Positions 14,713-25,618 of a stretch of 64,000 nt of DNA are shown here, one piece after another (the first letter of the stretch is position 1; each line of letters begins with the position of its first letter). The notes beneath the pieces are model-generated. The model saw nothing but the letters and a program-made list of their open reading frames with translations. It was not told the origin of the DNA and did not search any database. Both the position numbers and the translations under genes were made by a program. Origin of the DNA: Candidatus Avispirillum faecium (lineage in GTDB: Bacteria > Bacillota > Clostridia > Oscillospirales > CAG-272); NCBI GenBank assembly GCA_904396155.1, contig CAJFOI010000005.1:1-64000 (forward strand), given 5' to 3'.

Positions 14713-15504
14713 ATGAAAGTATTATTAAAAGTACAATATATGGGCACGGCGTACTGCGGATTTCAATGCCAGAAAAACGGTGCCAGCATCCAGGAGGTCC
14801 TCACAAGGGCCGCGGGTCGGGTGTTCGGTATGCCCTGCAGCGTCACCGGCTGCAGCCGGACGGATGCCGGCGTACACGCACTGGGATATGTGTGCGCAGT
14901 CGCCCCTGCGGACGGCGCGCGCGGTGCGGATTGGTGCACAGTCCCGCCGGGAAAGATCCATCGGGCGTTTGCACCGCATCTTCCGCCGGATATTTCCGTC
15001 TGCGCCGCCGCTTTTGCACCGGACTTTTTTCATCCCCGGTATGACGCGGTGGAAAAGGAATACATCTATCAAATTTGGGATGCGCCTTGGGAAACCCCGT
15101 TTTTTCGGGACAGAAGCTATCACAGTGTACGCAGGATTTCACCGGAGGGACTATCCCAAATGCAGGCGGCTGCGGCAGCCTATATCGGAAGACACGATTT
15201 TCGCGCTTTTATGGCAGGGAGTGCTGAAAGAGATACGGTGCGTACCGTTACGCGGGCACAGGTGCGGCGGGAAGACGAACATATGCTTGCTTTTTCGGTG
15301 TCTGCCGACGGGTTTCTCTACAATATGGTCCGCATTATGGCCGGCACACTGCTGGAAGTCGCGGCGGGCAGGATGATGGCAGAGGATATCCCGATGATTT
15401 TAGAAATGCGGGATCGAAGCCGTGCAGGGTTCACTGCGCCGCCCCACGGGCTATATCTGCGGGAAGTGCGGTATCCTGAGGAGATTTTGTGGCAGTGTGA
15501 GTGA
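14713..15504 (+). CDS. truA: tRNA pseudouridine(38-40) synthase TruA
   Basis: This 263-residue enzyme makes pseudouridine in the tRNA anticodon arm. The catalytic aspartate is D51 in CSRTDAGVHA. Other family blocks are YMGTAYCGFQ at the start, YDAVEKEYIY in the middle and FLYNMVRIMAGTLLEVA near the C-terminus. It follows ecfT by 9 nt, and the ecfA1-ecfA2-ecfT-truA order is common in Firmicutes. Confidence 0.97.
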   Translation: MKVLLKVQYMGTAYCGFQCQKNGASIQEVLTRAAGRVFGMPCSVTGCSRTDAGVHALGYVCAVAPADGARGADWCTVPPGKIHRAFAPHLPPDISVCAAAFAPDFFHPRYDAVEKEYIYQIWDAPWETPFFRDRSYHSVRRISPEGLSQMQAAAAAYIGRHDFRAFMAGSAERDTVRTVTRAQVRREDEHMLAFSVSADGFLYNMVRIMAGTLLEVAAGRMMAEDIPMILEMRDRSRAGFTAPPHGLYLREVRYPEEILWQCE

Positions 15505-15542
15505 ATGCCGTTTTTGTGATTTTTTGGAAAGGGGGCGTGCAA

Positions 15543-16856
15543 ATGGCGGGCGAAGATACAGACCGGGAAGAGTTGATCCGTACAGGCAGTCGGAGAAAGA
15601 AAAAGACCTCCGGCAGGCGTGTGGGCAGGAAAAATGCCGTGGGCGATCCGGCGGCAGGGCAAAGGCGGCGTCCGCCCCGTGTGTCTGTTGCACTGGATGA
15701 GGCGCAGCCTGCGGTGAACCGCTATTACATCGCCATTGCGGACCGATACAGATGGGCGCGGCTGCTGTCTGTGATCGCTCTGGTTTTGTTTTTGCTGATC
15801 ATGCTCCTTTTCTACCGGGAAAACATCACCTATGGAAATCTCATGTACCTGATCCGGGACTTGGACGTCGGTACGGTGTCTGCGGTGGGGAGGTATGCAG
15901 ATTTAAGCTTTGAGCGGCAGTATGCTCCTTCCTTTGCGCTGTTTCGGGATCGAATTGCCGTCGGGGGGGCGTCCGGGTTTCGGCTGTACAATGCATCGGG
16001 TGCTAAGGAGCTGGATTATGAAAGCGCCTATGGAGACCCGCGCCTTGTGACAGGAGACAAGTATGCGCTTTTTTACGATGCGGCGGGAAAGTCCTATTCC
16101 ATATATACTGCGATCGCCCGTGTACTAAGCGGGGAAGAGGAGGAAATCATCCAGGACGCGGCAATTTCCGACGAAGGCACCTACGCTTTGCTCACCGAGT
16201 CGGATACGGCGCGGTACGAGATTACCGTATACAGCTCGGATTTCAAGCCTGTTGCAAAATACTACAAAGACAGGTATGTGGTGGATATGGCCTTGGATTC
16301 TGACGGAGAACAAATGACGGTGGTTTCTGCGGGCGTTTCCGGCGCAGGAGCGCTTTGCGAGGTCATGTTCTGCAAGATCGGCAGCGAGGAGACCTCTGTC
16401 GTGGAATTGGAAGACACCATGCCGCTGGCAGTCCGGTACGGAGACAACGGCAAATGGGTGGTCGTGTGTGACAACAAGGTTGTGTTTTATGACGGGGGGG
16501 AAGAATGCGGGCGTTATGATATAGAAGGGGGGACCCCTGCCGCCTTTGATCTGAGCGGCACATATTTTGCTCTGGCAACTGCGAAGAATGCGGCAGCTTC
16601 CGAAAATGAAATAATTCTATTTGACACCGAGGGGAATATCATATATAATAATAGAATCAGTGAAAAAGTAGAGGAGATTGCAGCGGACAAAGACAGAGCG
16701 GTGTATGTGCTTTGTACGGACAAGGCGGTTCAATATCCCTTATCCGGAGAAGCGCCCAAAGAGGAGGCACTGCAAGGTGAGGCTTTGGATATTCTTCCGG
16801 CGGCGGGCGGCGTCATTGTCTGTGAGGCCGACGGGACATATTCTCTTTTTGGGTGA
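15543..16856 (+). CDS. DUF5711-type membrane-anchored beta-propeller-like protein
   Basis: This 437-residue protein has a basic cytoplasmic N-terminus rich in Arg and Lys. One membrane helix near residues 75-97 (LLSVIALVLFLLIMLLF) is followed by a long extracytoplasmic region of repeating beta-strand segments, like a WD/PQQ-type propeller. I associate this layout with DUF5711 proteins of Oscillospirales; the assignment is from memory. The start ATG at 15543 has GAAAGGGGG upstream, and an earlier in-frame ATG at 15501 overlaps truA without an SD. No catalytic motif was seen. It lies between truA and cvpA in a co-directional run. Confidence 0.65.
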   Translation: MAGEDTDREELIRTGSRRKKKTSGRRVGRKNAVGDPAAGQRRRPPRVSVALDEAQPAVNRYYIAIADRYRWARLLSVIALVLFLLIMLLFYRENITYGNLMYLIRDLDVGTVSAVGRYADLSFERQYAPSFALFRDRIAVGGASGFRLYNASGAKELDYESAYGDPRLVTGDKYALFYDAAGKSYSIYTAIARVLSGEEEEIIQDAAISDEGTYALLTESDTARYEITVYSSDFKPVAKYYKDRYVVDMALDSDGEQMTVVSAGVSGAGALCEVMFCKIGSEETSVVELEDTMPLAVRYGDNGKWVVVCDNKVVFYDGGEECGRYDIEGGTPAAFDLSGTYFALATAKNAAASENEIILFDTEGNIIYNNRISEKVEEIAADKDRAVYVLCTDKAVQYPLSGEAPKEEALQGEALDILPAAGGVIVCEADGTYSLFG

Positions 16857-16934: not shown

Positions 16935-17675
16935 ATGCATTTTGTACTGGATATTATCATTGTGGCGCTGTGCGTCCTGACGATCTTAGTGAGTTACAAG
17001 CGGGGCTTTTTCAAATCTGTGATGAGTCTGTGCTCCGGCATCGCTGCGCTGCTCGTGGCATATACCTTTACACCGCGTCTGGCGCTGATTGTGAAAGAGA
17101 AGTTTTTACTGGACAAGATCGCCGGCGGCGTGGTGGAGACCCTTGCTTCTATGGCAAGAACTGGAGCCGAGGGCGCACAGAATGTAGTGTATGATCTTTC
17201 CAAACTGTTGGAAAACTCTCAATTTGTCTCAATTTTGGATCAATACGGTGCGAACTCCGATGCGATAAGAGATTTGATTCAGAGCACCAACGACGGCAGT
17301 CATGCTGCAGTAGAGCAGGTTGCCTATGCGGTGGCAGATCCCATTGCCGGCACCCTTGCAAGTATTATGGTGTTTATCGGTTTGTTTCTGGCGGCGATCC
17401 TCGTGCTGCGACTCGTCACCTGGGCCATCGGCATCATTTTTACCCTGCCGGTGCTTCGAGGGGTGGACAAAATCCTGGGGCTGGTGTTTGGCATTGTCAG
17501 TGCGCTGCTGTTTGTGTGGATCTTCGCCATGGTCGCGGCTGCGGCACTGGATGCGATTGCTTCTGTGGCACCGGGGACGATCGATCCGGATATATTGGAA
17601 GATTCTGTACTGCTCAAATTTTTTGCCCGCTATAATCCTGTAGAGGCGATCACAAACGCAATAGCGGGTCAGTAA
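16935..17675 (+). CDS. cvpA: CvpA family membrane protein
   Basis: This 246-residue protein starts with a membrane helix and the LVSYKRGFFKSVMSL segment typical of the CvpA family. A helical extracytoplasmic insert follows, then two or three more membrane helices. CvpA proteins are linked to colicin V production in E. coli and to envelope homeostasis elsewhere; the role in Clostridia is not established. SD AAAGG lies about 10 nt before the ATG at 16935. Confidence 0.8.
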   Translation: MHFVLDIIIVALCVLTILVSYKRGFFKSVMSLCSGIAALLVAYTFTPRLALIVKEKFLLDKIAGGVVETLASMARTGAEGAQNVVYDLSKLLENSQFVSILDQYGANSDAIRDLIQSTNDGSHAAVEQVAYAVADPIAGTLASIMVFIGLFLAAILVLRLVTWAIGIIFTLPVLRGVDKILGLVFGIVSALLFVWIFAMVAAAALDAIASVAPGTIDPDILEDSVLLKFFARYNPVEAITNAIAGQ

Positions 17676-17711
17676 GTGGTTTCAAACATTTTCAGAAAGG
17701 TTTTCTGTTTT

Positions 17712-18302
17712 ATGAAGGCAAAATATATTCCGAACATTTTGTCCATTCTCCGGCTTTTTATGTCTTTTGCCTTTGCGGCCGTTTTTATCTGGGGATATCC
17801 GGATTATGTGATGCTGGCCGCAGGTATCTTCATCCTGTCCGGTGTGACGGACGTGGTGGACGGAATTCTTGCCAGGAGATTCGGTTGGGTGACAGAGGCG
17901 GGAAAAATTTTGGACCCTCTGGCCGACAAACTCATGCAGTGTACGGCGCTGCTTTGTCTCGTTTTCTGGAAGATCGTGCCCTGGTGGATCCTTCTTTTGA
18001 TTGTACTCAAGGAGCTGCTTATGGGCTGCGGTGCAATTGTTCTTTTCCGGAAAAGCCGGGAGATCGGCGTGTCCAAGTATTTCGGCAAGGCGTATACAGT
18101 GCTCTTCTATGCAGTGGTCATGCTGTTTTTGCTGTTCCCGAACTGGTTGGGAGATCATGCGTGGGCTACATACGCCCTGTGTATATTCATGGCAGTGATG
18201 GCGTTTTGTGTGCTCGTCCTGTACTATATCAGTTATTTGAAAAACAAAACCAAGAAGCGAAGAAAGGCGACAACGGATGGTAATGTGTGCAAGATGCCAT
18301 AA
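17712..18302 (+). CDS. CDP-alcohol phosphatidyltransferase (PgsA-like)
   Basis: This 196-residue membrane enzyme carries the full CDP-alcohol signature DVVDGILAR-x8-G-x3-D-x3-D near residues 48-75, which binds CDP-diacylglycerol and metal ions. Five or six membrane helices are predicted by eye. It would make phosphatidylglycerol-phosphate or a related phospholipid. The ATG at 17712 is preferred over a GTG at 17676 that abuts the cvpA stop, because AAAGG lies 11 nt upstream. Its end overlaps the Clp gene by 26 nt. Confidence 0.85.
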   Translation: MKAKYIPNILSILRLFMSFAFAAVFIWGYPDYVMLAAGIFILSGVTDVVDGILARRFGWVTEAGKILDPLADKLMQCTALLCLVFWKIVPWWILLLIVLKELLMGCGAIVLFRKSREIGVSKYFGKAYTVLFYAVVMLFLLFPNWLGDHAWATYALCIFMAVMAFCVLVLYYISYLKNKTKKRRKATTDGNVCKMP

Positions 18303-20622
18303 ACGAATGGCAGTGGTATTTATCACACGCGTGGAGGAGGGCGAGGCCAAGCAGGAAGGCATTTGTATAAAATGCGCCAGAGAGCTCGGCATCAAGCCTG
18401 TGAACGATATTATTGCCAAGATGGGTCTCAGCGATGAAGATGTGGATCGTATGTCCGAGGAGATGCAGGACATTATGGACGGCATTGAAAATGGTGAGGA
18501 TCCCTTGGGCATGGGCGGCAGAGAAGGTCTTGTCCCCAGCGGAGAAGACGAGTCCCGTGCGCCGGCGGTGGACTTTGGGCGGCTTATGCGCGAAGGAATG
18601 GCGGCAGCGGGTCTTCCCCAGGAACAGAAGCCTGCAAAGGAAAAAGGGCGCGGTGCCGACAAGGGAGAAGCGCGCAAGAAGAAAGAACGCAAATTTCTCA
18701 CTACCTACTGTCAGAATATTACGGAACAGGCCGCTATGGGCAAATTGGACCGGGTTGTAGGACGGGAGCGGGAACTGGACCGTGTGATCCAGATTTTGTG
18801 CAGACGGCAGAAAAACAATCCCTGCCTTATTGGAGAGCCCGGTGTAGGAAAAACGGCAATTGCCGAGGCGCTGGCCCAGAAAATCGTAGCGGGGGATGTT
18901 CCTTACAAACTCCGGGGGAAAGAACTGTTTTTGATGGATCTTACGGCTCTGGTGGCCGGCACTCAGTTTCGGGGGCAATTTGAATCCAGAGTGTTGGGAC
19001 TGCTCAATGAGGTAAAGGCTGCCGGGAACATCATTCTTGTGATCGATGAGGTTCACAATATTGTAGGTGCCGGCGATGCGGAAGGATCCATGAATGCAGC
19101 CAATATCATGAAGCCCGCACTGTCCAGAGGAGAGATCCAGGTGGTGGGTGCCACCACAATGACAGAATACCGCAAATATATTGAAAAGGATTCCGCGCTG
19201 GAGCGGCGGTTCCAGCCGGTGACAGTGGAGGAGCCGAGTCTTGCAGACACGGAAGCGGTATTGCGGGGGATCAAGCATTACTACGAGGCATATCACGGCA
19301 TTCATATCCCGGACAGTGTGCTTCGGGCTGCGGTGGTTATGAGCGAACGGTATATAACGGATCGTTATCTTCCGGATAAGGCTATTGATTTAATTGATGA
19401 AGCGGCTGCACACATCTCTTTGTCCAGCCCGGCCATCAATGAGCGGTACGAGTTGGGAGACCGTTTGGCGGCAATCGAAAAGGAACAGGCGGCGTTGGAA
19501 GCCGCTGCGGAATCGGGCGAGGATGCCGCGTCGGAGGAGACTTACCGCAGACTGGCGGACATCAAAGTAGAACAGCTTCGCATCCAAAACCGGATAGAAG
19601 AATTAAAAGCGGTCTGTGATCAGGTGGAGATGAAGGAATCGGATCTTGCAGATGTGATCGAGATCTGGACGGGAATTCCTGCGTCTTCTATCACGGAAGA
19701 TGAGTACACGCGGTTGGAGGGGCTGGGAGATCGGATCCGGGAGAGGATCGTAGGGCAGGATGAAGCGGTGGACGCAGTCGTGCGTGCGGTGCGCCGGTCC
19801 AGAACCGGGGTGTCCCCGAAGCGCAAGCCGGTTTCCTTCATTTTTGCAGGTCCCACCGGTGTAGGTAAAACGGAACTTGTGAAGGTGCTGGCAGCCGATT
19901 TGTTTTCATCTCCGGAGACGTTGATCCGACTGGACATGAGCGAATTTATGGACAAATTTTCCGTGTCCAGAATTGTAGGCGCACCTCCTGGATATGTAGG
20001 CTATGACGATGGAGGGCAGCTTACGGAAAAGATCCGCCGCCGGCCCTATTCTGTCGTACTGTTTGACGAGATCGAAAAAGCCCATCCGGATGTGATGAAT
20101 ATCCTTTTGCAGATCTTGGACGATGGGCGGATCACGGATGCCCACGGGAAGACGGTGAGCTTTGAAAACACAGTGATCGTGATGACTACCAATGCCGGCA
20201 GCACCGGCGGTATGGCCATGGCGGGCTTCACCGATCAGGGCGAGATGCGCACGAAGGAAAAAACGCAAAAGGCCCTTGCCGATTTTCTGCGGCCAGAATT
20301 TCTCAATCGGGTGGATGAGATCATCACTTTCCGTTCCCTCGATCTGAAAGATTTCGAACGGATTGCTTCCATTATGCTGGAGGATTTGAAGAAAGCGCTG
20401 GCGGAAAAATATATTCGTTTCCATTATACGGATGCTGCGGCTGCCTATATTGCAAAGCAGTCCTTTTCGGTGAAATACGGGGCTCGAAATATGCGCCGGT
20501 ATATTCAAACTGCGGTAGAGGACAAGGTGGCGGAGAAGATTGTGTCTCTCCGGGGACAGCTTTCCGGGATCAGTGTGGATGTGGGTGTAGACCGGGACAG
20601 CTTGTCTGTTACGGCGATATAA
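18277..20622 (+). CDS. ClpE-like AAA+ unfoldase (Clp ATP-binding subunit)
   Basis: This 781-residue protein has an N-terminal four-cysteine zinc site (C4, C7, C30, C33) in place of the Clp-N repeats, as in ClpE. The first AAA+ domain has Walker A GEPGVGKT at 186-193 and Walker B VIDEVH at 255-260. A short UVR-like coiled-coil middle domain lies near 420-455, and the second AAA+ domain has Walker A GPTGVGKT at 525-532. A hydrophobic-Gly-Phe tripeptide (AGF) after the second Walker B region may dock ClpP. The start at 18277 overlaps the upstream gene; ATG at 18283 is also possible. It probably unfolds proteins for ClpP. It is followed after 26 nt by the degenerate P-type ATPase. Confidence 0.88.
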
Positions 20623-20648
20623 GGACAAAAAGGCAAATTGGAGCACAT

Positions 20649-23399
20649 ATGAAACAGGATAGAAATTGGCATCACCTGACAGTTGATGAGCTTTCTTCCA
20701 TTTTCAAGACGGACAGTGTGACGGGACTGTCCCAGCGGGAGGCTGCCAGGCGTCTGCGCAGGGGAACCAATAAAATATGGACTGTGCGCAGTATCTCGCT
20801 GCGGCGGTATGCCGGCCGTTCCCTGGCGGATTTTTCCACGGTGCTTCTTGTGATCACGGCGCTTCTTGCGGCGGTTTTCGGTAATGCGGCCGAAACCGCC
20901 GCTGTTTGCGTTATGCTGGCGGCAGCGCGCTGTGCCCGCATCATTGTCTATGTGTTGGCCCAGCGTGTATTTGAAAAGAACGCCGCCGCCTCGCTTCCCC
21001 GGGCACGGGTCGTGCGTGCCGGCACGGTGAAGACGATTCCGGCAGACGGCGTAGTGCCGGGAGATATGGTGGTGCTGGACGCAGGAGATACTGTTCCCTG
21101 TGACGTGCGGCTCACGGCTGCGGACAACGTACTGGTATCCGAGGGGCAGCTTACGGAAAACGAAGGGATCGTGGCCAAAAGTGCTGTGGATATACCAAAG
21201 GAAGAGGATGTGCCCATCCCTCTGCGGACGAACATGCTGTATGCATCTTCGGCTGTGATCGGCGGCTTTTGCATGGGTATGGCGGTGGCTACCGGAGAAC
21301 ATACGCTGGTGTATGCCAGGGAGGGGCAGATAGAACTGTCCAACGGAGAGGAACTTCCCTCTCTTGGAAGGCTTTCAGATTTGGGTCGGCAGTGCAGTCT
21401 TGGATTGATTTTGATTGCCCTGGCAATCTGTCTTGTAGGGACTGCAGTGGGAGGACAGGATCTTTTTGCCGTTTTTTTGCCGTCCATTGCCATGGCCGCG
21501 GCCTGTCTCAACGAATACATAGGCGCAGCGGGTGCTCTGGCATGGGCTGCTGCTCTGCGCCATCGAAAAAAAGGGGATATTGTTTTCCGGGATGCGGCGG
21601 CGGGAGAACGGGCGGCGGAAATACAGTTGTTGCTTTTGCGCTCTACTGCCGCGCTAAAAAGCAAAAAAACTTCTTTTCATGCTTACTATACCCAAGAGAC
21701 ATACCATACAGTTTCAAAAAAAGTGGATCCATTGCCCGGTCGCCTTTTGTATCTGGCATACTGTACTACGGGAATAACACCCGGTATGCCATCGGCCGGC
21801 AGTGCAGTGGAGCAAAGCGGTTCGGACGGGGTACTTCCGTATCCTGTGGTCCGTTCTCTCTGGGAGGAACAAAAAGCAGCGGACTTGTCGGCGACAGAGC
21901 GCTTTGCGGTCGTCCAGCATATGTCTGCCGGGCAGGCAGAAGCGAGGGGGATGGACTGCTCTCTTCTGGCAAGGGACGGGGTGTACTATTTCGTCTGTCT
22001 GGGACGAACAGAGGAGGTCCTCGCCCAGTGTACCACCCAGCGTGGGGGAGAGGAAACCATTCCTCTTCTTCAGGAGGATCGGGACAAGATTTTATCTCTG
22101 GCGTCCTCTCTGACGATGCAGGGGGTGTCTGTAGCGGCGGTGGGCTTTCGGCCGTCTCATTATAACAGTTTGCGCCGCGTATCGGTACTGCAATCCAATT
22201 TGTGCTTTGAAGGGTTTATTGCCGTATCCCAGAAGCCTGCAGCGGATACGCTGGCGGCACTGCGATCCTTTCGGGAAGAAGGAGGCCGGGTCATTCTGTT
22301 CTCGCGGGGATCCGAAGAAGACCGATGCTTTGCCCAGGCAGAAGGGATCCTGGGACAGAGAGATATTTACATGACCTGCCAGGAGAGTGCCGCCGCACGT
22401 ACCCTCTCTTTGGAACCGGGACAGCTTGCAATGATCGGTGTTCCCGGTGGGATCGACGGGATCCGGGAGAGAGTGCGGTTTTTGCGCATGTGCCGGGAGG
22501 GCGGTCTGTGCTGTGGATATTTTGGCTGGGGTGTAGAGGATCTATGGGCGATGCAGCAGGCAGACGTAGCCTTTGCCGCCCCTGTGCCCGGCAAGTTCGG
22601 TGCAGACATCCCGCAAACACTTCGGGTGACTGCACAAGGTATGGCTGACATGGGAGAAGGCGGCCTGGGATCGGTGCTGCGCACGATCATGCGCTGCCGC
22701 GGCGCTATGCGCAATCTTTCCAATGTTCTTTCCTATTTGATTGTATCACATATGACCCGGATCGTTTTGCTCCTTCTTTGTGCCGCTATCGGCTTGCCCC
22801 TTCTCTCGGCGGCGCAGATTGTGTTTTGGGGTATCCTGATGGACTTTTCCGTATCTGCTGCCGGCGTGTTGATTCCAGCGGGGAATTATGTGCCGTTCCC
22901 TGTACAGGAGGAAGAAAAATCAACAGATGCCGTTCGGCAGAAGGGATTTGTGCTGGAGGGCACAAAGACATTGCTGCTTGCTTTATATGGCACACTTCTT
23001 GCGGTCCTGGCTGCGGCAGCTCCTTATCTTGGGAGGGCACTGATCGATCTTTTGGGCCCTTCCTGCAGTTTGCACGCCGGAATACAGCAGAGCTGCATGT
23101 TTTTGACTTGTACTTGCATTATGCCCTTTATTGCAGCAGAGTTTTGCACAGGCGGGCTTTTTCGCAAACATGCGGCATACGGTCACTTTTTTTGGATGCC
23201 TTTTGCAGCTGCTTTTGTGGGAATCTTCTGGACGGTCATTACCGGCGGGCTTGCAGACGGGAGCGGGGCGGGCCTGGATACGCAGGCGCCGGGATGGCTG
23301 CTGCTTTTGTTTGCGCTGCTGCCGATGCTTTTGTCGGTTGCGGTGCTCTCCGGTGTGCGTGCGGTGCTGTATCGAAAAAATGCTGCAAAATGTAAATAA
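20649..23399 (+). CDS. P-type ATPase homologue with all catalytic motifs lost (pseudoenzyme)
   Basis: This 916-residue protein keeps the full P-type ATPase layout: an N-terminal cytoplasmic segment, TM1-2, an actuator-like domain (115-220; GDMVVLDAGDTVPCDVRL), TM3-4, P- and N-domains (305-690) and a C-terminal membrane block. The hallmark residues are gone. The TGES site reads TENE (169-172). PEGL in TM4 reads NEYI (288-291). The phosphorylation motif DKTGT reads RSTAA, with Arg at 331. The N-domain KGAP site reads LGRT (451-454), the TGD site reads SRG (552-554), and TGDGxND reads FGWGVED (625-631). The spacing is kept and the frame is open throughout, so this is not simple decay. GGAG lies 5 nt before the ATG. 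Transport activity is unlikely; a regulatory or scaffold role is inferred. Confidence 0.85.
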   Translation: MKQDRNWHHLTVDELSSIFKTDSVTGLSQREAARRLRRGTNKIWTVRSISLRRYAGRSLADFSTVLLVITALLAAVFGNAAETAAVCVMLAAARCARIIVYVLAQRVFEKNAAASLPRARVVRAGTVKTIPADGVVPGDMVVLDAGDTVPCDVRLTAADNVLVSEGQLTENEGIVAKSAVDIPKEEDVPIPLRTNMLYASSAVIGGFCMGMAVATGEHTLVYAREGQIELSNGEELPSLGRLSDLGRQCSLGLILIALAICLVGTAVGGQDLFAVFLPSIAMAAACLNEYIGAAGALAWAAALRHRKKGDIVFRDAAAGERAAEIQLLLLRSTAALKSKKTSFHAYYTQETYHTVSKKVDPLPGRLLYLAYCTTGITPGMPSAGSAVEQSGSDGVLPYPVVRSLWEEQKAADLSATERFAVVQHMSAGQAEARGMDCSLLARDGVYYFVCLGRTEEVLAQCTTQRGGEETIPLLQEDRDKILSLASSLTMQGVSVAAVGFRPSHYNSLRRVSVLQSNLCFEGFIAVSQKPAADTLAALRSFREEGGRVILFSRGSEEDRCFAQAEGILGQRDIYMTCQESAAARTLSLEPGQLAMIGVPGGIDGIRERVRFLRMCREGGLCCGYFGWGVEDLWAMQQADVAFAAPVPGKFGADIPQTLRVTAQGMADMGEGGLGSVLRTIMRCRGAMRNLSNVLSYLIVSHMTRIVLLLLCAAIGLPLLSAAQIVFWGILMDFSVSAAGVLIPAGNYVPFPVQEEEKSTDAVRQKGFVLEGTKTLLLALYGTLLAVLAAAAPYLGRALIDLLGPSCSLHAGIQQSCMFLTCTCIMPFIAAEFCTGGLFRKHAAYGHFFWMPFAAAFVGIFWTVITGGLADGSGAGLDTQAPGWLLLLFALLPMLLSVAVLSGVRAVLYRKNAAKCK

Positions 23400-23450: not shown

Positions 23451-23499
23451 AAAAAAGCGGGTCTGACCGCGAAACAATAGATCGGAGATGGAAAAAGTT

Positions 23500-24333
23500 A
23501 TGGATGATCAAAATACATGCACCCACGACTGCTCCAGCTGCAGTGCGGACTGTGCTTCTCGGGACAGCGCGGAGATTCAAAAAGAACCGCTGAATCCTGC
23601 ATCTTCTGTTCGCCACGTCATTGGCATCGTGTCGGGAAAAGGCGGAGTTGGGAAATCCATGGTAACTTCTATGTTGGCCACGGAAATGCGCCGGCGTTCC
23701 TGGGGGGTCGCTGTGTTGGATGCAGACATTACCGGTCCGTCTGTACCGAAATCTTTTGGTATTTGCGGCGGAGTAGAGGTGCGTGGAGAAAACATGCTTC
23801 CCGCCTATACAAAGACGGGCATTCAACTGATGAGCGTCAATTTGCTCTTGGAGGATGCCAGCAGTCCTGTGGTGTGGCGAGGGCCTGTGATTGCCGGCGC
23901 CGTGAAGCAGTTTTGGACGGATGTGATCTGGACAGATGTAGATTATATGTTTGTAGATATGCCTCCCGGAACGGGGGATGTTCCGCTTACCGTGTTCCAG
24001 TCTTTGCCGCTGGACGGGATCATCATTGTGACCACGCCCCAGGAGCTGGTTTCCATGATCGTAGAAAAAGCGGTGAACATGGCAAAGTTGATGCATATTC
24101 CAATTCTTGGAATGATAGAAAACATGTCCTATGCGGTCTGCCCAGATTGTGGAAAGAAGATTTCTTTATTTGGGGAAAGCCGGGGACAGGAGGTAGCAAA
24201 GGAGTACGGTGTCCCTCTTCTGGCGGAGATTCCAATAGATGGAAAACTTGCTGCGTTGATGGACAAAGGCGTAATTGAACTGATGGAGAACGATTATATT
24301 TCTCCTGCGGCGGATGCTATAGAAGGGCTATAA
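23500..24333 (+). CDS. Mrp/NBP35-family Fe-S cluster carrier ATPase
   Basis: This 277-residue P-loop ATPase belongs to the ApbC/Nbp35 group, which delivers Fe-S clusters. The deviant Walker A GKGGVGKS lies near residue 44, DADITGPS near 73 is family-typical, MPPGTGD near 150 is the Walker B region, and CPDC near 210 is the cluster-binding CxxC. A cysteine-rich N-terminus (C-x3-C-x2-C-x3-C within the first 20 residues) resembles the N-terminal cluster site of Nbp35. ATG 23488 abuts GGAG, so 23500 is the better start. The hydrogenase operon downstream needs many Fe-S clusters, but no direct link is shown. Confidence 0.88.
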   Translation: MDDQNTCTHDCSSCSADCASRDSAEIQKEPLNPASSVRHVIGIVSGKGGVGKSMVTSMLATEMRRRSWGVAVLDADITGPSVPKSFGICGGVEVRGENMLPAYTKTGIQLMSVNLLLEDASSPVVWRGPVIAGAVKQFWTDVIWTDVDYMFVDMPPGTGDVPLTVFQSLPLDGIIIVTTPQELVSMIVEKAVNMAKLMHIPILGMIENMSYAVCPDCGKKISLFGESRGQEVAKEYGVPLLAEIPIDGKLAALMDKGVIELMENDYISPAADAIEGL

Positions 24334-24359: not shown

Positions 24360-25595
24360 ATGAAAAACAAGCGCATGATGAAAGAATACAGCCGGCAGGA
24401 AAGCGTTTCTCTTGCTTTTCTGCCGAAATCCAAAAAGCGGCCTGCGGGGCAGGACAGGCAACTGGACTTGACCGGGCTGCACAAAAAAAAGAACATCTCG
24501 GCAGAACGCAAGAAGCGCAGACGGTTCTATATTGGCATCGGTATTCCTGTGGGGCTTATTCTGGTGCTCACGGTGTGTTATGTGGTATTTGTCTATTCTT
24601 CCAATCCCTTTATTGCGCACTGGCGGGCAATCTGGATCGAAACGGCAATGACGACCGGCCGGCATCACTGGCTGGCGGAGAACTTTTTCCCCCAGGAGAT
24701 CATCGACGAGGTCATGGCAAATCTTGCTACAGATGAGAATGTACTGGGAGGCGGGGACAGCCTGTCTACAGGAGAGGTGGAAAAGGAACCTGCAAAGCCG
24801 CCCGTGGAAACAGACATTTTAGATCAGAAGAATCTTGTGGTGGGCGGCAAGGATTATGCAGGCAATACTGTACTGATCAACGATATCGAGCAGGGTCTGG
24901 TAGTGTCGGAAATCGTCGGCTCGGGATATCGGGGCAAGATCATGCTGGTGGACGACCCCTCCCGGGTGTTTCTCGGGTCTACCGCATATAAGAATCAAAC
25001 GGGTATGCGGATTTTGGATATGATGGAGCAGTATGGCGCCATTGCAGGGATCAATGCAAGCGGATTTCAGGACCCCGGCGGAGAAGGCAACGGCGGGGTG
25101 GTGACGGGCATGAGCTGCTCTCAGGGGGAATACTGGGGCGAGTTTGTGACCTACTACGGCAGCATTGTTTTAACCACCGATAACAAGTTGGTTGTGGGGA
25201 ATATTTCCGTATGGGATACATATACCAATATCCGGGATGGAATTCAGTTTAGCCCCGTGCTGATTGCAAACGGCGAAAAGCAGGTGTCCGGCTCTGCCGG
25301 ATACGGCCTGCAGCCGCGCACTGCCATCGGACAGCGTGCGGACGGCGTCATTGCGCTGCTGATTGTGGACGGGCGGGATGTTTCCCACTCGATTGGTTGC
25401 ACGGTAGGGGATATGGCGGACATCCTCTTGTCCTATGATATCATCAACGCGTCCAGCTGTGACGGAGGGGCTTCCAGCGTGCTTGCCTATAAGGGGGAAG
25501 TAATTACAAAGAATTGTTCTGCAAATCCTTCTTTGGGGCGTATTCTGCCCAACGCGTTCCTGGTTGCTCCAAAGGAAAGTACAAATGAAAAATGA
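24360..25595 (+). CDS. Membrane-anchored phosphodiester glycosidase family protein
   Basis: This 411-residue protein has a basic cytoplasmic tail (1-55), one membrane helix near 57-80 and an extracytoplasmic domain of the phosphodiester glycosidase (NAGPA/DUF2233) type. Family blocks include GINASGFQDPGGEG near 230, PRTAIGQRADG near 320, and the C-terminal NASSCDGGASSVLAYKG with NPSLGR. The family removes N-acetylglucosamine from phosphodiesters or acts on cell-wall polymers. The bacterial substrate is unknown here. It starts 26 nt after mrp, and its end overlaps a strong terminator. Confidence 0.82.
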   Translation: MKNKRMMKEYSRQESVSLAFLPKSKKRPAGQDRQLDLTGLHKKKNISAERKKRRRFYIGIGIPVGLILVLTVCYVVFVYSSNPFIAHWRAIWIETAMTTGRHHWLAENFFPQEIIDEVMANLATDENVLGGGDSLSTGEVEKEPAKPPVETDILDQKNLVVGGKDYAGNTVLINDIEQGLVVSEIVGSGYRGKIMLVDDPSRVFLGSTAYKNQTGMRILDMMEQYGAIAGINASGFQDPGGEGNGGVVTGMSCSQGEYWGEFVTYYGSIVLTTDNKLVVGNISVWDTYTNIRDGIQFSPVLIANGEKQVSGSAGYGLQPRTAIGQRADGVIALLIVDGRDVSHSIGCTVGDMADILLSYDIINASSCDGGASSVLAYKGEVITKNCSANPSLGRILPNAFLVAPKESTNEK

Positions 25596-25618
25596 GATGC
25601 CAGAGGCATCTCATTTTT
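25588..25618 (+). terminator. Intrinsic terminator after phosphodiester glycosidase gene
   Basis: A 14-bp perfect stem (25588-25601 with 25605-25618) with loop AGA. The 3' arm ends in TTTTT. It overlaps the stop codon of the preceding gene. Confidence 0.88.

Follow-up and report, generated by a model that had tools for sequence, protein, structure and literature searches.

The fold of the P-type ATPases is treated as that of a strictly ATP-coupled motor. The locus considered here raises the question of what such a protein might do once its motor residues are gone, and why its gene should follow that of a Clp unfoldase. The window, that is the whole stretch of 64,000 nucleotides that was analysed, carries on its forward strand an open frame of 916 codons that starts with ATG, has no internal stop and lies 26 nt beyond the TAA of the Clp gene. 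An earlier note on this DNA had described the frame as intact and preceded by a good ribosome-binding site, and both points hold. The gene and its main parts are:

20649..23399, + strand: ClpE-linked P2-type pseudo-ATPase (hereafter the pseudo-pump), 916 aa, with ten predicted TM helices and a complete set of A, P and N domains
20640..20643, + strand: ribosome-binding site GGAG, 5 nt upstream of the pseudo-pump ATG
20988..21356, + strand: actuator (A) domain, residues 114-236, the most highly conserved part in the pseudo clade
21684..22178, + strand: nucleotide-binding (N) domain, residues about 346-510, missing altogether in three other genera

The profile search and structure prediction proposed in the earlier note agree on P2-type homology and a complete P-type fold. 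A Pfam search of the pseudo-pump returns its actuator domain (PF00122, 4e-21) and its N-terminus (PF00690, 6e-8) and gives no match to the nucleotide-binding or HAD catalytic domain families, while its best relatives in NCBIfam and the PDB are P2A calcium pumps. The AlphaFold2 model, for which an alignment of 74 homologues served as input, is a complete P-type fold (pLDDT 88.6, pTM 0.87) that retains the unwinding (helix break) of TM4. Its top Foldseek match is human SPCA1, a Ca2+-ATPase (E 6e-37, TMq 0.75), and VIA-align places several P2 pumps at Z scores of about 31 on alignments longer than 800 residues (8iwp: Z 31.0, rmsd 4.9 over 831 residues). The model superposes better on E1-state than on E2-state structures, which may reflect a bias of the predictor. 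By fold and homology, with A, P, N and M domains in the P-type order, the protein belongs to the P-type superfamily. The P2A Ca2+-ATPases (SPCA1/PMR1, LMCA1 lmo0841, SERCA) are its best matches in both sequence and structure and share with it the domain order, the ten TM helices, the TM4 break with its Glu and the TM6 Asp. Unlike these pumps, it is without the phosphorylation Asp, TGES, KGA, TGD and GDGVND, has Arg for the TM5 Glu and is linked to clpE.

The positions concerned are listed below. Counts refer to family f1, the protein's own, which contributed 74 full-length sequences from 39 genera to the homologue set; families f17 and f20 added 19 more.

21153..21164, + strand: TGES replaced by TENE, residues 169-172
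21507..21524, + strand: TM4 site LNEYIG, residues 287-292; the Pro is lost, Glu289 is kept (70/74 in f1)
21639..21653, + strand: phosphorylation motif, DKTGT replaced by RSTAA (Arg331)
21999..22010, + strand: KGAP replaced by LGRT, residues 451-454
22299..22310, + strand: ITGD replaced by FSRG, residues 551-554
22521..22541, + strand: TGDGVND replaced by FGWGVED, residues 625-631
22758..22760, + strand: TM5 Arg704; R in 70 and K in 4 of 74 in f1, Glu in most intact pumps
22842..22844, + strand: TM6 Asp732, invariant (74/74 in f1)

All six motif replacements lie where the earlier note had placed them. One refinement concerns the TM4 site, where the Glu of PEGL is kept (E289). The P-type domain order and spacing on which it had relied are also found: 43 residues separate the TM4 Pro position from the phosphorylation position (N288 to R331), exactly as in the intact Ca2+-ATPase of the same genome (P289 to D332; locus L045 on contig C41). 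Intact motifs at another place in the protein, which the earlier note had named as counting against its reading, are not present; since the motif positions also line up in register with those of intact paralogues, a frameshift or relocation of the motifs can be rejected. The P2A ion ligands (TM4 PEGL, TM5 N/E, TM6 N..D) are not preserved as a set. Besides the lost Pro, the TM5 Asn/Glu has become His(Gln)/Arg and the TM6 Asn has become Gly, with Glu and Asp kept. The three features that define the enzyme in this superfamily, namely the DKTGT Asp, the GDGxND hinge/Mg site and the TGES phosphatase loop, are all absent. Judged by the chemistry of the superfamily, the pseudo-pump very probably does not pump.

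The same losses recur in its relatives, both in the 39 genera of f1 and in the two further families. Most genomes of the genus have an orthologue (36-82% identity), and identity between genera is about 20-25%. None of the 74+19 homologues has a working phosphorylation motif (DKTGT/GDGVND). The phosphorylation Asp is lost in 73/74 of f1; the one sequence with Asp at the aligned position (LVDREGA, in G029) lacks the remainder of DKTGT as well as GDGVND and has shed most other catalytic residues. The first Asp of GDGxND is kept in 5/74 only, a Glu stands at the aligned TGES position in 9/74, the Lys of KGA is Arg in 44/74, and at most 4/6 key catalytic positions survive in any one sequence. In f17, Asp occupies the phosphorylation position in 4/9, without the K, T, G or T of the motif, and GDGVND is gone as well. 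By comparison, ordinary P-type ATPases of the same order and class, aligned identically, keep DKTGT, TGD and GDGVND in 28/28 cases.

Purifying selection on this pseudoenzyme, which the earlier note had supposed, is borne out by dN/dS values that are not near 1. The least saturated pair, G001-G016 (dS 0.32), gives 0.115, and the usable close pairs range from 0.045 to 0.135; values up to 0.24 come from more distant, partly saturated pairs. Isolated decay is ruled out by the homologues across genera together with these ratios. The idea that the whole clade is a decaying relic on its way out could draw on repeated losses in f1, high divergence and the domain deletions described below, and is nevertheless scarcely credible: every usable pair has a dN/dS far below 1, which strongly disfavours it, and all 74 sequences have full-length open frames with their invariant residues retained, persisting in 39 genera. 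That the protein is a selected pseudo-pump is, on these tool results, practically certain.

What selection maintains differs from what it maintains in an ordinary pump. Mean identity among f1 pseudo-pumps is 32% in the A domain, 29% in TM5-6, 25% in TM1-4, 24% in P2, 21% in P1 and 20% in the N domain; in ordinary pumps P1, the segment with the phosphorylation site, is highest at 73% and A stands at 52%. The order of conservation is thus inverted. dN/dS by domain shows A and TM1-4 as the most constrained and, in most pairs, N and TM7-10 as the least. Invariant or nearly so in f1 are G138-D139, G146, D152, R154 and K177 in the A domain and, in the membrane part, E289 (TM4), R704 (TM5), and G728 and D732 (TM6).

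The poorly conserved N domain is absent altogether in G031 (698 aa), G089 (757 aa) and G095 (684 aa), whose genes all lie behind clpE. The shortened G031 protein is still predicted with a P-type fold (pLDDT 88.3, pTM 0.89) that matches SPCA1, SERCA and MgtA. It follows that ATP cannot be bound in the customary manner by the pseudo-pumps of these three genera, which are retained all the same. This bears on the proposal that the old scaffold has been put to a new use in catalysis or nucleotide binding, whether by repurposing the HAD site, for instance, or by binding ATP with no phosphorylation to follow. In its favour, the P domain retains its fold, the KGA Lys is often Arg, and matches to the N and HAD domain families persist in some members; set against this, in addition to the deletions, the f1 sequences share no conserved set of residues where the active site used to be, and we consider such an activity improbable. 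At the other end of the polypeptide, L064, L066, L039 and L055 carry C-terminal extensions of 130-350 residues, low in complexity and often acidic. Pfam finds no recognised domain in the C-terminal extensions seen in some genera.

The conserved membrane residues suggest a different possibility, that of a passive ion- or voltage-sensing membrane protein in which the buried charges of TM4 Glu, TM5 Arg and TM6 Asp bind or sense protons or cations and pass a signal on by way of the A domain, whether or not ClpE takes part. In f1 the cluster is nearly complete (E289 70/74, R/K704 74/74, D732 74/74), and the TM4 break persists in the model. A TM5 Arg with a TM6 Asp is also found in the intact P3A plasma-membrane H+-ATPases, proton pumps that use this pair (AHA2 R655/D684; PMC10654040). 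Unlike them, the pseudo-pump is catalytically dead and nearer to P2A in sequence, and its Arg/Asp pair occurs in a single family. Indeed, f17 and f20 have Leu/Ile/Val in TM5 and Asn or an apolar residue in TM6 and so lack the triad despite the same clpE linkage; the triad was therefore rejected as the general function of the clade. Moreover, a built-in Arg would tend to take the place of a bound cation. Ion sensing is, on this evidence, unlikely.

The genes around the pseudo-pump are:

15501..16856, + strand: DUF5711 protein, a conserved upstream neighbour
16935..17675, + strand: CvpA family membrane protein, a conserved upstream neighbour
17676..18302, + strand: CDP-alcohol phosphatidyltransferase (pgsA-like), a neighbour almost only in the protein's own genus
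18277..20622, + strand: ClpE/ClpC-type AAA+ unfoldase, 781 aa, with a zinc finger of four Cys at its N-terminus, two intact Walker sets and an AGF loop at the ClpP-docking position
23488..24333, + strand: Mrp/NUBPL-type Fe-S P-loop protein, a neighbour in 20/73 loci

The unfoldase has every mark of its type: C4/C7/C30/C33 are nearly invariant, the Walker motifs are invariant, and so are G650/F651 of the AGF loop. ClpP is encoded in the same genome. The distance from the stop codon of the Clp gene to the start of the pump gene has a median of 22.5 nt (n=74) and falls within -220 to +60 nt in 63/74 cases; the clpE adjacency, which the earlier note had proposed to check, is conserved. Many gaps measure -4 to +30 nt and several are 4-nt overlaps, consistent with co-translation. 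The coupling to phospholipid synthesis that the same note had suggested is not sustained: pgsA lies next to clpE in 13/73 loci and is essentially genus-specific, and the widely conserved upstream block is truA - DUF5711 - cvpA, with ecfT farther out.

The linkage extends beyond f1. A motif-less pump homologue lies behind clpE in 10/11 inspected loci of f20 and 9/10 of f17, so that three families share the arrangement, the genetic linkage expected of a Clp adaptor or membrane receptor. No such homologue follows clpE at 33 loci of other families with downstream DNA, or in G205 and G279. Large ORFs downstream of clpE in f24, f18 and f7 were considered as pseudo-pumps and are YfhO, a GTPase and a peptidase; in G313 (f16) an intact pump adjoins clpE outside the operon, a convergent case. 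That the conserved neighbour in the sampled loci is clpE and not the gene of an intact pump also argues against the pseudo-pump being a regulatory subunit, dominant-negative or heteromeric, of a co-resident intact P-type pump. The genome does encode an intact relative (on C41), and solved P-type structures include MgtA dimers and plasma-membrane H+-ATPase hexamers; even so, we regard such a subunit as distinctly improbable.

In the ATPase tree, in which long branches are a caveat, all pseudo-pumps split from ordinary pumps (support 100) and each family is grouped (99-100). The Clp tree places f1, f17, f20 and f6 together against the remaining families (split support 99). Among 20 f1 loci picked as doubtful, 8 have clpE without a pseudo-pump. 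These data are compatible with a single gain in the common ancestor of at least three families, before they split, and fit subsequent losses in f6, in single members of f17 and f20 and repeatedly in f1; one gain followed by repeated loss explains both trees. The f1 members with clpE alone (L106, L108, L109, L112, L113, L121, L124 and L125) are scattered over the Clp tree; they point to repeated losses and are possible natural knock-outs. Because several f1 members have clpE alone, ClpE does not strictly depend on the pseudo-pump. Genome G026 has two clpE and pseudo-pump pairs (L040 on C75, L085 on C123), apparently a duplication of the whole pair.

We propose that a P2-type, Ca2+-pump-like ATPase came to sit behind clpE in the ancestor of at least three families, that it may then have lost phosphorylation and pumping, and that the dead pump would have been retained to serve the ClpE unfoldase as a membrane partner without catalysis of its own. 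Most likely, its TM bundle and actuator domain would dock ClpE(-ClpP) or offer membrane clients to ClpE. Such a role would need no ATP-driven E1/E2 cycle, and the nucleotide-binding domain would be dispensable. The three-family linkage, the tight spacing and the parts retained all point to a membrane anchor or substrate adaptor for Clp, to which we give slightly less than an even chance. More tentative is the fuller proposal, possible on balance rather than probable, that a former ion pump now serves a Clp unfoldase as its dedicated receptor or adaptor at the membrane, forming a putative Clp-based system of membrane protein quality control that works through a pseudo-P-type ATPase. Several observations weigh against a partner role. 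Gene order alone could reflect co-expression; the pseudo-pump of G138 lies elsewhere and some clpE loci are without one; a search for a ClpE residue signature tracking pseudo-pump presence found none; and sequence divergence between genera is high.

The pseudo-pump resembles members of the ClpE/ClpC unfoldase systems in that its neighbour is an intact ClpE-type unfoldase. Adaptors of ClpE/ClpC include MecA and McsB; to our knowledge those described are soluble, and we know of none derived from an ion pump. The bacterial P-type pseudo-ATPase itself, clpE-linked or otherwise, was not found in the open-access literature, subscription journals lying largely outside the search. What is new is a pseudoenzyme clade inside the known P-type superfamily. 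A further parallel comes from the rhomboid pseudoproteases and from YqgP of B. subtilis, a membrane-protein adaptor of the AAA+ protease FtsH independently of its own catalysis (PMC7231995). As in the present case, a multi-pass membrane (pseudo)enzyme is paired with an AAA+ machine, and we count YqgP-FtsH in favour of the partner reading as a precedent for a multi-pass membrane protein acting as adaptor of an AAA+ protease. It differs in fold and in the AAA+ protein concerned, and its interaction has been shown, whereas that of the pseudo-pump with ClpE is inferred.

A whole clade has thus kept the full P-type fold under selection and discarded the motor, some genera having dropped the nucleotide domain as well. 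Its members are naturally occurring proteins in which to study what an actuator domain and a membrane core can do unaided. Should the clpE link prove functional, a Clp unfoldase would have a new route to the membrane. There is also a warning for annotation: although the chemistry is gone, the resemblance of these genes to calcium-pump models is close enough for them to be named transporters. In a class-wide profile search the score does not distinguish pseudo from intact pumps.

Some further features of these loci may be recorded. The G138 gene mentioned above (L072:1984-4734) directly follows the ORF of a HAD-type phosphatase. At 16621-16649 (+) of the window, within the 3' portion of the DUF5711 gene, lies a perfect sigma-70 type promoter match, TTGACA-17-TATAAT (12/12); it is about 285 nt upstream of cvpA and could drive cvpA-pgsA-clpE-pseudo-pump. 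At 25588-25618 of the window, after a NAGPA-family gene, a strong 14-bp hairpin with a T-tract is the likely operon terminator.
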